Positions 4,681-17,775 of a stretch of DNA of 32,165 nucleotides are shown here, one piece after another. Position 1 is the stretch's first letter. Every line of letters starts with the position of its first letter. A model generated the notes under the pieces. It was not told the origin of the DNA. It searched no databases and worked only from the letters and a program-made list of their open reading frames with translations. The DNA is from a bacterium (GTDB lineage: Bacteria > Patescibacteriota > Minisyncoccia > UBA6257 > 02-FULL-45-10c): assembly GCA_030700025.1 (NCBI GenBank), contig JAUYKI010000017.1:66748-98912 (forward strand). The letters run 5' to 3'. The translations under genes were made by a program, and so were the position numbers.

Positions 4681-4740
4681 CCTGAGTTGTATCGAAGGGA
4701 GCTTTATTGAAGGAGTGCCTGCCCTGAGTTTATCGAAGGG
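4681..4740. repeat. Two copies of a CCTGAGTT...ATCGAAGGG repeat
   Basis: CCTGAGTTGTATCGAAGGG (4681-4699) and a near copy one base shorter (4723-4740) lie in the spacer between the glycosyltransferase and the tRNA. The unit resembles the short CCTGAG...CGAAGG intergenic repeat seen in many bacterial genomes; this comparison is from memory. Confidence 0.6.
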
Positions 4741-4812
4741 TGCCTGTGGGAAGGATCGAACTTCCGACCAATGCCTTATGAAGACACTGCTCTACCACTG
4801 AGCTACACAGGC
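4741..4812 (-). tRNA. tRNA-Met (anticodon CAT)
   Basis: A 72-nt cloverleaf. Acceptor GCCTGTG/CACAGGC, T8-A9, D-stem GCTC/GAGC, anticodon stem GTGTC/GGCAT with loop TTCATAA (anticodon CAT), T-arm GGAAG-TTCGATC-CTTCC, discriminator A. CCA is not encoded. It lacks the initiator C1xA72 mismatch, so it is elongator Met, or possibly Ile after lysidine modification. Confidence 0.9.
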
Positions 4813-4840
4813 AGTTTGTGTTGAATATATTATATTAATT

Positions 4841-5224
4841 TTACTCTTTTGTAAAATTAAACTCTATATCTTTAAGTATATTAGATAAAATGGTTTTGCT
4901 ATAAACACCGGCTCGGCATACGCCATGCTTATATTTGTTATTTTTTCCAGCCGATTTTTTAATATAAGTTTTTGTAAACTGGCTTAGCGGCACGGATAAT
5001 TTATCAGACCAGTATTTTTTAGCTATATTTTCATTGCTATCGGGCCAAAGATGCAATCGTAATTTGATTTTATTGGCAGAAATTTTATAAAATTTATCAA
5101 GCCAAGCCATAAAATTTTTAATAATCCAGTAATCGGTGGAGGTAACCGCGACCATATAAACTCTATTAAAAGTTTTATCGCCTTCGCACCAATAGAGCAT
5201 TAAGCCTTCTCGTTTAGTCAGCAT
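4841..5224 (-). CDS. LAGLIDADG-like homing-endonuclease-type protein
   Basis: A 127-aa protein. MLTKREGLMLYWCEGDK resembles the LAGLIDADG helix followed by an acidic active-site turn. It continues with VAVTSTDYWIIKNFMAWL and then KIKLRLHLWPDSN and YSKTILSNILKDIEF, the alternating helix/strand layout of small single-motif LAGLIDADG proteins. This is family-level pattern recognition and not certain. It starts at ATG 5224; the longer in-frame ORF to 5356 would run through a terminator and tRNA-fMet and is rejected. It lies in the same orientation just downstream of the intron-containing tRNA gene. Confidence 0.5.
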   Translation of the reverse strand: MLTKREGLMLYWCEGDKTFNRVYMVAVTSTDYWIIKNFMAWLDKFYKISANKIKLRLHLWPDSNENIAKKYWSDKLSVPLSQFTKTYIKKSAGKNNKYKHGVCRAGVYSKTILSNILKDIEFNFTKE

Positions 5225-5250
5225 ATTAATTAATAATATAGTAAAAAAAC

Positions 5251-5276
5251 AAAAAATGCCCATTTGGGCATTTTTT
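5251..5276. terminator. Bidirectional intrinsic terminator after tRNA-fMet
   Basis: AAAAAATGCCC/GGGCATTTTTT stem with an ATTT loop. It has T runs in both directions. On the minus strand it follows tRNA-fMet and precedes the endonuclease-like ORF. Confidence 0.85.
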
Positions 5277-5284
5277 GTTTTGCG

Positions 5285-5567
5285 TGGTTGCGGGAGTTGG
5301 ATTTGAACCAACGACCTCAAGGTTATGCGTACCACTACGGCTTGCGCCGCGTCCAATTATTATTGGAATTTGTGGTCTGGACTATACCTTAATCCGATTT
5401 TTGTCGGATTCCTACCGTCTAGTCTCTACACCTTATCGCCGAGGGCGATCTTGGCTCGGTATTATCCATAAGCGGACTTCACCGAATTTGATAGGTTATC
5501 CATTGAATATTGCTACTCAACGAGCCCATATTGAGCCTTGCGAGCTACCAGGCTGCTCTACCCCGCG
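5285..5567 (-). tRNA. Initiator tRNA-fMet (CAT), interrupted by a group I intron
   Basis: The exons are 5567-5534 (34 nt) and 5327-5285 (43 nt), giving a 77-nt tRNA with encoded CCA. The acceptor has the C1xA72 mismatch that marks bacterial initiator tRNA (5' CGCGGGG, 3' TCCCGCA-A-CCA). The D region reads GAGCAGCCTGGTAGCTC, the anticodon stem CAAGG/CCTTG with loop CTCATAA, the T-arm GTTGG-TTCAAAT-CCAAC. The split falls between U33 and C34. Without removing the 206-nt insert no tRNA can fold. A consensus promoter stands directly upstream. Confidence 0.93.
5328..5533 (-). ncRNA. Group I self-splicing intron in tRNA-fMet
   Basis: A 206-nt insert in the anticodon loop. Its catalytic-core words appear in the right order on the minus strand: a P-like segment (AATTCGGTGAAG), Q (AATACCGAGCCAAG), R (GGTGTAGAGACTAGACGG) and S (AAGGTATAGTCC). 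The 5' exon ends in U and the intron ends in G, as group I introns require. GGCU at the exon end can pair with GGCU in the intron with a U-G pair at the splice site (P1). The core resembles the small IC3 introns of bacterial tRNA genes. No ORF is contained in it. Confidence 0.92.
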
Positions 5568-5572
5568 AAGCT

Positions 5573-5601
5573 ATTATACCGACAGACCCGCGAATTGACA
5601 A
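5573..5601 (-). promoter_or_regulatory. Promoter of tRNA-fMet
   Basis: Minus strand TTGTCA (5601-5596), 17-bp spacer, perfect TATAAT (5578-5573), 5 nt before the tRNA 5' end. Its -35 shares bases with the opposing promoter. Confidence 0.85.
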
Positions 5602-10338: not shown

Positions 10339-10896
10339 ATGGTCACCAGCGCCGGCGTGGAAGTCCTGGGTCCTTTTTCAACTCCGGTTAATTATGACGC
10401 TGATTTGGAAAAAACAATTTCTTTGGATAATTATGACGTCCGGGATCCGCGTATTACTCCTAAGAATTTTCCGCCCCGCCGCGCCGGAGAGGCAAAATTG
10501 GATATTTATTTAATTTGTTTTGGAAAGCCGATTGCCACCCGGAAGGTTAACGCGGAGTTGAAAAATATGAAGATGCGGCCCGCGGAACTTCTGGAAGTAT
10601 TGCCTTGGGCTAAAGAACATCCGGATTTTCAACGCGAATTTCCGATTGTGGTTGCGGGAACAGTCTGGATTGACCATAGTCTGACGCGTTCTCGGCGCAG
10701 TACCCCAGTAAAGCCGGATAAAAACCAGAACAGCGACCGCTATATGCCGTGCCTTTGGGGATTGCGGGATCAGCGCGCGTTGAATCTTAATTTGCTCGGA
10801 GCGACTTTTGAAGAAGCGGTTAATAAGGAATGGCAGCCGTTTTGCCGTTTTGCGGCAGTTCAGTTGCGTCAGGGCAGTAAAGCGCCGGGTGAATAA
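10339..10896 (+). CDS. DGR-target-like protein (undiversified paralogue 1)
   Basis: A 185-aa soluble protein, clearly homologous to the DGR target at 15348. Shared blocks are ITPKNFP with ITEKNFP, MRPAELLEVLPWAKEHPD with YRPAELPEGLAHAKANPD, FPIVVAGTVW with YPIVILGSVW, and the final CRFAAVQL with YRFLAVRK. The last 80 residues correspond to the C-type-lectin-like region that the DGR diversifies, but the DNA there does not match the template repeat. It also has a proline/lysine insertion after TVW. GGGAGG precedes ATG 10339. A terminator hairpin begins before its stop codon. Function unknown; ligand binding is inferred from the fold. Confidence 0.75.
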   Translation: MVTSAGVEVLGPFSTPVNYDADLEKTISLDNYDVRDPRITPKNFPPRRAGEAKLDIYLICFGKPIATRKVNAELKNMKMRPAELLEVLPWAKEHPDFQREFPIVVAGTVWIDHSLTRSRRSTPVKPDKNQNSDRYMPCLWGLRDQRALNLNLLGATFEEAVNKEWQPFCRFAAVQLRQGSKAPGE

Positions 10897-11059: not shown

Positions 11060-11548
11060 ATGGTGGATGCACCGCTCAAACCGTTAGCGCTTGCGCCGAA
11101 AATCGAAACGCTGTCTCTCGGTGGCTTTGACTACGGCCGTCCGCTGGGAGAGCTGATTGATGATGGCGGATTTGAGGGGATTCATCCGGATATCAAAATT
11201 CCGGGTAGATTCCGAATTTTCGGAAATCGCTGCAGCCAGGAAGTTCAGCTGGTGTGCTTCGACCGGATCCTGACCTTTGATGAGGCGATCGCCGGGTTGG
11301 ACAATCTGGCCTGCCGTCCGGCAGCTCTTCCGGAGCAGCTGGCGTTGGCGGTCAAGTTCAAAGAGGCGTATCAGCAGGGGTGGATTCCGGCCCTGGATTC
11401 GATCTGGCACAAGAGCAGCGAGGAACGCCTGGTTCCGCTTCTCTGCGTGATGGAGTTGAAAGGAAAGCCGAGCCAGCGCACCTTGACCCCCTACAACTGC
11501 CTCCGGAGATTTCCGTCTGCAACCCGTTTTGCGGCTGTGAAGCTGTGA
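11060..11548 (+). CDS. DGR-target-like protein (undiversified paralogue 2)
   Basis: A 162-aa protein of the same family as the DGR target. GRPLGELIDDGGFEGIHPDI matches TRPLANMLKEDGQFDWVHSDI in the target, CRPAALPEQLALA matches YRPAELPEGLAHA, then DSIWHK aligns with GSVWRD, and the end is TRFAAVKL. Its codon use is richer in G and C than that of its neighbours. No TR-like sequence is present in its 3' end. ATG 11060 follows AAAGGAG. Strong promoter and terminator make it a single-gene unit. Function unknown. Confidence 0.75.
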   Translation: MVDAPLKPLALAPKIETLSLGGFDYGRPLGELIDDGGFEGIHPDIKIPGRFRIFGNRCSQEVQLVCFDRILTFDEAIAGLDNLACRPAALPEQLALAVKFKEAYQQGWIPALDSIWHKSSEERLVPLLCVMELKGKPSQRTLTPYNCLRRFPSATRFAAVKL

Positions 11549-15254: not shown

Positions 15255-15347
15255 TATAATGCCTAAAAAGGCACAGGTTCTTTAAGAAGAAACTAAAACC
15301 AACCAAGCGGTAGATCGCCCTTGGCGACAGGCCGAAGGAGAAAAAAG

Positions 15348-15950
15348 ATGAAGAGCGAGTATGCTTCCGGGTTTAAGATTGCGGCAAGCATCTTTCAGAA
15401 GCTTTTGGAAGCCGTGGAAGATGCCGGCGGAACGGATGCGGATGTCCGCCGGATTGAGACCAATAGCAATCTGCGCAAGCAGATTGCGGAGTTGGTGGTT
15501 CAGGGAAAAAAGTTGGTTGATGGCACCATCCGTCTCCTCGTTGACTACACCCGCCCTCTGGCAAACATGCTCAAGGAAGATGGCCAGTTTGACTGGGTCC
15601 ACTCGGACATCACCGAAAAGAACTTCCCAATCACCAAACGTCCCAACGGGGAAGCGGACCTGAAAATGTTCCACTTCAATCGAGACATCAGCTCTGACCA
15701 AGTCATCCAAGAAATGAACAAAGAAGGATACCGTCCCGCGGAACTCCCGGAAGGCTTGGCCCACGCTAAAGCTAACCCGGATGAGCAGCGGAAATATCCG
15801 ATCGTGATTCTCGGCTCTGTCTGGCGGGACTTCCTTGGTCGCCGCTTCGTCCCGTATCGCTGCAGTGATAGCGATGAGCGGGGCCTGTACCTGAATTGGT
15901 TCGACCGTGAGTGGCTCGAGGGCTACCGTTTCCTCGCAGTTCGCAAGTAG
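15348..15950 (+). CDS. DGR target protein with variable C-terminal lectin-like region
   Basis: A 200-aa protein. Residues 1-65 look helical (FQKLLEAVEDAGG...LRKQIAELVVQGKKLVDG). Residues 66-156 are the domain shared with the paralogues at 10339 and 11060. Residues 157-200 are encoded by the variable repeat and have the C-type-lectin-like pattern ending YRFLAVRK. Codons differing from the template at adenines give residues 161, 163, 165, 167, 172, 179, 181, 185, 187, 190 and 192; R171 stems from a non-adenine difference. AAGGAG precedes ATG 15348; the TTG at 15321 would give an unlikely basic extension. No signal peptide is seen, so the ligand may be intracellular or export is unconventional. 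Ligand unknown. Confidence 0.92.
   Translation: MKSEYASGFKIAASIFQKLLEAVEDAGGTDADVRRIETNSNLRKQIAELVVQGKKLVDGTIRLLVDYTRPLANMLKEDGQFDWVHSDITEKNFPITKRPNGEADLKMFHFNRDISSDQVIQEMNKEGYRPAELPEGLAHAKANPDEQRKYPIVILGSVWRDFLGRRFVPYRCSDSDERGLYLNWFDREWLEGYRFLAVRK
15816..15946 (+). repeat. DGR variable repeat (VR)
   Basis: 131 bp aligned without gaps to the template at 16297-16427 (offset 481). Eighteen differences are at template adenines and one is T to G (15859). The last 20 or so bases (CGTTTCCTCGCAGTTCGC) are identical and act as the presumed initiation-of-mutagenic-homing segment. Confidence 0.95.
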
Positions 15951-16809: not shown

Positions 16810-17775
16810 ATGAAAATTCAATTGATTCATAAATTTGAAGACATAATCAGCGTAGAAAATCTATTAGACGCCTGGAAAGAGTTTGTCCGGGGAAAAAGGC
16901 GTAAACCGGACGTTCAGGAATTTTCTATGAACTTAATGGATAATATCCTATTACTCCATTCTGACCTCGCTGATTTTACCTATAAACACGGCGGTTATCA
17001 AGCTTTTAACATAAGCGACCCTAAGCCGAGGAATATCCACAAGGCCAGCGTCCGGGACCGCCTGCTTCACCACGCTATATATAGAATACTTTATCCATTT
17101 TTTGACCGGACTTTTATAGCCGATTCTTATTCCTACCGGATAAATAAAGGCACGCATAAAGCCATAAATCGTTTCCGCTCTTTCGCTTATGAAGTCAGCC
17201 GGAATAACACTAAAACCTGCTGGATATTAAAGATGGATATAAGAAAATTTTTTGCCAATATTGATCACCGGATACTTATGCGGGCGCTATACCGCGGTAT
17301 AGCAGATAAATATATCTTATGGATCTTGAATGAAGTAATTAGGAGTTTTCCTAAGGGCTTGCCTTTGGGTAATTTAACATCCCAGTTATTGGTAAATATC
17401 TATATGAATGAATTGGATCAATTTATAAAACATAAATTGAAAGCTATGTATTATATCAGATACGCGGATGATTTTGTGATTTTATCTCAAAATAAGGATT
17501 GGCTGGAAAATCAGATAAAGCCGATCCAAGATTTCTTATCAGAAAAATTAAGGTTGGAATTACATCCCAACAAGATTGTTATTAAAACTTTAAGTTCCGG
17601 CGTTGATTTCCTCGGCTGGGTTAATTTCTTTGATCACCGGGTATTAAGGACAGCTACAAAAAGGAGAATGTTAAAGAGAATTAAAGAAAATCCGGCTGAG
17701 GCCACGATTAATTCTTATTTGGGGTTGATGAGGCACGGGAATACGGGAAAGCTAAAAAGAAAGATAATAATTTGA
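16810..17775 (+). CDS. DGR reverse transcriptase
   Basis: A 321-aa group II-intron-like reverse transcriptase. Motif A is KMDIRKFFANID (D143), motif B-like LPLGNLTSQ (184-192) is the form typical of DGR enzymes, and motif C is RYADDF (Y218-D221). It ends with LGWVNFF and LMRHGNTGKLKRK; there is no maturase or endonuclease domain. It copies TR RNA with adenine-specific errors. It is a little shorter than most DGR RTs (roughly 330-400). ATG 16810 has no good ribosome binding site. The family motifs and the TR/VR pair make the call secure. Confidence 0.96.
   Translation: MKIQLIHKFEDIISVENLLDAWKEFVRGKRRKPDVQEFSMNLMDNILLLHSDLADFTYKHGGYQAFNISDPKPRNIHKASVRDRLLHHAIYRILYPFFDRTFIADSYSYRINKGTHKAINRFRSFAYEVSRNNTKTCWILKMDIRKFFANIDHRILMRALYRGIADKYILWILNEVIRSFPKGLPLGNLTSQLLVNIYMNELDQFIKHKLKAMYYIRYADDFVILSQNKDWLENQIKPIQDFLSEKLRLELHPNKIVIKTLSSGVDFLGWVNFFDHRVLRTATKRRMLKRIKENPAEATINSYLGLMRHGNTGKLKRKIII
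17286..17303. repeat. 18-bp perfect palindrome inside RT, copy 1
   Basis: GCTATACCGCGGTATAGC. The same palindrome occurs at 22517-22536. Here it encodes LYRGIA within the reverse transcriptase. Confidence 0.85.

Follow-up and report, generated by a model that had tools for sequence, protein, structure and literature searches.

An ORF-less group I intron, very probably self-splicing, in the single detected initiator tRNA gene of a Patescibacterium

The introns of Azoarcus tRNA-Ile(CAU) and Agrobacterium tRNA-Arg(CCU), which belong to subgroup IC3, are about 200 nt long, lack an ORF, are built on a P-Q-R-S core and follow the anticodon. The intron analysed here lies in a window of 32,165 nucleotides (the whole stretch of DNA under analysis) and resembles them in size, tRNA host, P-Q-R-S core and lack of an ORF, but it precedes the anticodon. 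The tRNA-fMet intron of Synechocystis is larger, with about 655 nt and an ORF, whereas that of the window has 206 nt and is ORF-less. Group I introns have been reported in the initiator tRNA-fMet of Synechocystis PCC 6803 and Gloeobacter violaceus (PMC8450103; PMC4033280), and these cyanobacterial introns, like the one in the window, interrupt the anticodon loop. In CPR bacteria, group I introns are described in rRNA genes (PMC11270868); they share the lineage and the group I core with the window intron, but have rRNA hosts and often carry LAGLIDADG ORFs. A 2025 preprint (bioRxiv 10.1101/2025.07.03.662931), cited in PMC12641178, deals according to its title with group I introns that interrupt tRNA genes of Patescibacteria, and to judge from that title these represent the same organism group and intron class. 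Given the cyanobacterial introns and this preprint, the window intron therefore joins an already known kind, and the principle of a ribozyme-dependent initiator tRNA is itself known from cyanobacteria. The original prediction, which called an intron in the initiator tRNA of such an organism notable, overrated it on these grounds, and also because the same-site intron is scattered through the order and beyond.

The interrupted initiator tRNA gene

Minus-strand positions 5567-5285 comprise a complete initiator tRNA, with 206 nt (5533-5328) inserted after U33 and before C34. Read from 5567, it consists of CGCGGGGTAGAGCAGCCTGGTAGCTCGCAAGGCT, then the 206 nt, then CATAACCTTGAGGTCGTTGGTTCAAATCCAACTCCCGCAACCA, ending at 5285. 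It has C1xA72, a CAU anticodon and an encoded CCA, and C1xA72 together with the fMet-like body marks it as an initiator. When the exons are joined, ARAGORN calls a clean tRNA-Met(cat) with encoded CCA. No tRNA is called by ARAGORN in the unspliced gene; the intron explains why tRNA-fMet is missed here by a standard finder. The tRNA identity and the split between U33 and C34 had been predicted exactly, to the coordinate. Two G-C pairs close the anticodon stem at its lower end in 19/19 carriers, while the third pair is variable and is A-U in the window. The promoter-like and terminator-like sites listed in Table 1 would bracket a one-gene unit, as judged from sequence. A 107-aa ORF on the plus strand (5275-5598), antisense to tRNA and intron, is most likely no gene.

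Table 1. Parts of the interrupted tRNA-fMet gene and its flanks (window positions)
Feature	Position	Strand	Evidence
Promoter-like site TTGTCA-17-TATAAT, just upstream of tRNA	5573..5601	-	Consensus scan, 11/12 matches; consensus match only
5' exon of tRNA-fMet (positions 1-33; last bases GGCU)	5534..5567	-	Stems of acceptor, D arm and anticodon arm conserved in 19/19 aligned carriers
Group I intron, 206 nt, terminal G	5328..5533	-	RF00028 full-length match, E 2.3e-11; covariation
P1 (exon GGCU paired with intron UGGGCU; U33-G wobble conserved)	5523..5537	-	UG pair in 19/19
Guide bases UAUG, able to pair with 3' exon CAUA (P10)	5527..5530	-	Sequence
P2 hairpin	5501..5522	-	Double changes in 8/8 counted pairs
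P3 5' strand, CCUAUC	5490..5495	-	99.1% of cells paired; double changes in 4/6 pairs
P4-P5-P6-P6a domain	5431..5486	-	Paired: P4 98.2% (UA/GC exchange), P6 94.7%, P6a 83.5%, P5 70.7%
P7 5' strand, GACUA	5420..5424	-	100% paired; AU/UA double change in one pair
P3 3' strand, GGUAGG	5411..5416	-	Same count as P3 5' strand
P8 hairpin	5391..5410	-	80.5% paired; double changes in 7/7 pairs
P7 3' strand, UAGUC	5380..5384	-	Same count as P7 5' strand
P9.0 5' strand, ACCAC	5372..5376	-	91.6% paired; double changes in 3/5 pairs
P9 hairpin	5352..5367	-	82.4% paired
P9a hairpin, GCAA tetraloop (GAAA in most relatives)	5337..5350	-	98.9% paired
P9.0 3' strand, GUGGU	5331..5335	-	Same count as P9.0 5' strand
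3' exon of tRNA-fMet, starting at C34 (CAU anticodon) and including the encoded CCA	5285..5327	-	Anticodon-stem pairs covary across intron, 19 carriers
Intrinsic-terminator-like hairpin and T run	5246..5281	-	Sequence scan

Fold and covariation of the intron

The original prediction had read the insert as a group I intron and proposed a covariance-model check with Rfam Intron_gpI (RF00028). This returned a match at 5351-5543 of the minus strand that covers model positions 1-253, which is the full length, with a score of 48.3 bits and an E-value of 2.3e-11 (search of 451 bases against all Rfam families). The score lies 1.7 bits under the curated gathering score of 50 bits, and for that reason the intron was missed when the whole window was scanned with Rfam at the default gathering cut-off; most of the same-site relatives score above it. 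The hallmarks of the class are present, namely the P3-P8 and P4-P6 domains and P7 with its pseudoknot, and they show compensatory changes. The R word, GUGUAGAGACUAGACGG, suggests by eye an IC3-like intron of the tRNA type. The precursor is predicted to fold with -96.8 kcal/mol, compared with -75.1 for dinucleotide shuffles (z -4.25), and 0/200 shuffles were as good.

Covariation was counted over 19 fMet introns that occupy the same site; they were aligned by MAFFT, the alignment was not fitted to a structure, and the structure tested was named from the window sequence. Of 1236 cells, 90.4% were paired, with changes on both sides in 43/66 intron pairs. The covariation score reached 0.502 against 0.207 in shuffles, none of which (0/500) scored as high, and when the partners were slid as a control, pairing fell to 31-43%. 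Counted across the intron in the 19 carriers, the tRNA stems were paired in 99.7% of cells, the anticodon stem with double changes. RNAalifold independently recovers P2, P3-P6, P8, P9 and P9a; P7 is absent from its fold because the program cannot draw pseudoknots. Failure of the core to fold, which had been named as a possible refutation, was thus not what was found: P3-P8 and P7 form and covary. The predicted U before the intron and G at its end are borne out in all 19 aligned sequences, where the U pairs as a U-G wobble in P1 at the 5' splice site.

Copy number and distribution

The window's own genome (G000) is a draft of 830,402 bases in 18 contigs with 98.7% completeness. It contains 42 tRNA matches over the cut-off, among which the elongator at 4738-4813 is the sole intact tRNA with a CAT anticodon, and the full tRNA-plus-intron query finds one place only. 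No second intact tRNA-fMet, which had been named as part of a further possible refutation, was found in this 98.7% complete draft of 18 contigs, in keeping with the single copy that had been considered; as the genome is a draft, it is possible that a second one lies inside an assembly gap. Neither tRNA-Phe nor tRNA-His was detected in G000 by tRNA matches and then pattern searches, so that some tRNA genes may sit in gaps. The genome has a tRNA-Ile(UAU), and no tRNA-Ile2(CAU) was seen in it. A second group I intron (C12:17339-17564, minus strand; L061, L346; 71.4 bits) interrupts the only tRNA-Asn found in G000, where it separates U35 from U36 within the GUU anticodon; it has an HNH-like ORF in its 5' part.

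The GyrB protein of the window has 60-64% identity to records of Parcubacteria, Kaiserbacteria, Nomurabacteria and Staskawiczbacteria, and 52% to Omnitrophota, from which the host can be taken to be a Patescibacterium. Outside G000, the full-query search recovered a tRNA-fMet gene split in this way from G048 (76% identity), G043, G017, G005 and G020. Within the order, the tRNA-fMet intron occurs in at least 10 of 244 genomes, which comprise G000 and these five together with G138, G146, G169 and G191. In many other genomes of the family and the order tRNA-fMet is intron-free, and the site is empty, with abutting exon matches, in relatives such as G025, G004, G011, G015 and G002. This scattered distribution suggests gain and loss. 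The tree of the 19 aligned introns resolves few groupings, and a constraint that joins the two carriers from the window's own family is not rejected (p-AU 0.15).

Intron_gpI matches are present in 141/244 genomes of the order. Where flanks were fetched, the other hosts included tRNA-Asn, tRNA-Phe-like, tRNA-His-like and 23S rRNA genes, as assigned by eye from the 3' exons; on the same basis, group I introns recur in the order's tRNA-Phe-like, tRNA-Asn and tRNA-His-like genes (L093-L222). A DNA-pattern scan of contigs for the 5' exon plus P1 listed matches that were mostly due to chance, some being real fMet introns, and among the matches listed these real introns were in records of Parcubacteria, Kaiserbacteria, Nomurabacteria and Omnitrophota. 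Cyanobacterial introns were not among the matches listed, to which no weight can be given. In the Omnitrophota records L226, L251, L255, L271, L291 and L293, tRNA-fMet is likewise interrupted at U33/C34, an occurrence for which no description was found in the literature searched, of which coverage was partial. An intron at this site thus occurs both in Patescibacteria and in Omnitrophota, which are deeply separated from each other. It could be argued that one U33/C34 family was spread across both by lateral transfer and was retained since the need for GTP in splicing the sole initiator tRNA ties the start of translation to the energy state of the cell, but this proposal is very improbable.

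Proposed splicing and alternative readings

With high confidence, the insert in the only tRNA-fMet gene detected in this small-genome Patescibacterium can be regarded as a small, ORF-less group I intron, IC3-like by eye, which would self-splice to leave a normal initiator tRNA. The intron would be transcribed together with the tRNA, and very probably cuts itself out. P1 would set the U33-G wobble into the core, and an exogenous guanosine, bound in P7, would attack after U33. The freed U33 would then attack after the terminal G, with P10 (UAUG with CAUA) aligning the 3' exon, and ligation of the exons would yield the mature, normal initiator tRNA-fMet. P10 has just four pairs in the window intron and is weaker in some relatives. 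We infer this course of splicing from the chemistry established for the group I class, and the need for it in initiation from the gene content. If no second tRNA-fMet gene exists, initiation would depend on the ribozyme and, as far as the draft shows, the tRNA that starts every protein would have to pass through it.

The split gene might instead be a decayed or unspliced copy, with an intact tRNA-fMet elsewhere serving translation. The draft state of the genome, in 18 contigs and with tRNA-Phe and tRNA-His equally not found, leaves some room for such a gene, but 19 carriers have intact exons and an intact core, both under constraint, and a second copy was neither found in the own genome nor seen in the five carriers searched likewise, which makes decay highly unlikely. 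Removal by a protein endonuclease and a ligase, in the style of archaeal tRNA introns and with an incidental likeness to group I, would agree with the position of the insert in the anticodon loop, where many tRNA introns lie. This explanation is almost certainly wrong in view of the complete group I core, the covarying P3 and P7, the invariant U-G wobble and the terminal G, and by eye no bulge-helix-bulge is seen at the boundaries.

Another possibility accepts the group I reading and adds that a neighbouring 127-aa ORF acts in trans to mobilise the intron, which would then be an active homing element. This ORF sits directly between tRNA-fMet and the elongator tRNA-Met, and in G048 one of its relatives is found about 380 bases downstream of the intron. 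However, its family occurs just before many kinds of tRNA genes, most of them without introns, and the window ORF lacks the N-terminal part of its relatives and has no significant Pfam match, so that mobilisation by it appears very unlikely. The ORF was at first suspected to be the homing endonuclease of the intron, a candidate given up as its family proved to be tied to tRNA genes in general.

The ORF and its family deserve attention in their own right. The ORF (4841-5221, minus strand) lies 28 bases ahead of the elongator tRNA-Met and is without the HTH part. Its relatives (L078-L092, L351-L370) have 224-255 aa, with an N-terminal HTH and a C-terminal part that has no Pfam match and is LAGLIDADG-like by eye only. 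In 28/35 places checked, the gene stands immediately ahead of a same-strand tRNA gene, whose start it sometimes overlaps, and two further copies stand just before a group I intron. The downstream tRNAs are Ile-UAU, Gly, Lys, Trp, Arg, Thr, Val and Met. By this association, the family would be a tRNA-linked mobile or tRNA-related gene family.

Elsewhere in the window, the plus strand encodes at 16810-17775 a reverse transcriptase (RVT_1, E 9e-28), upstream of which three ORFs (10339-10896, 11060-11548 and 15321-15950) have C-termini that are similar by eye. Together they resemble a diversity-generating retroelement that has two or more targets.
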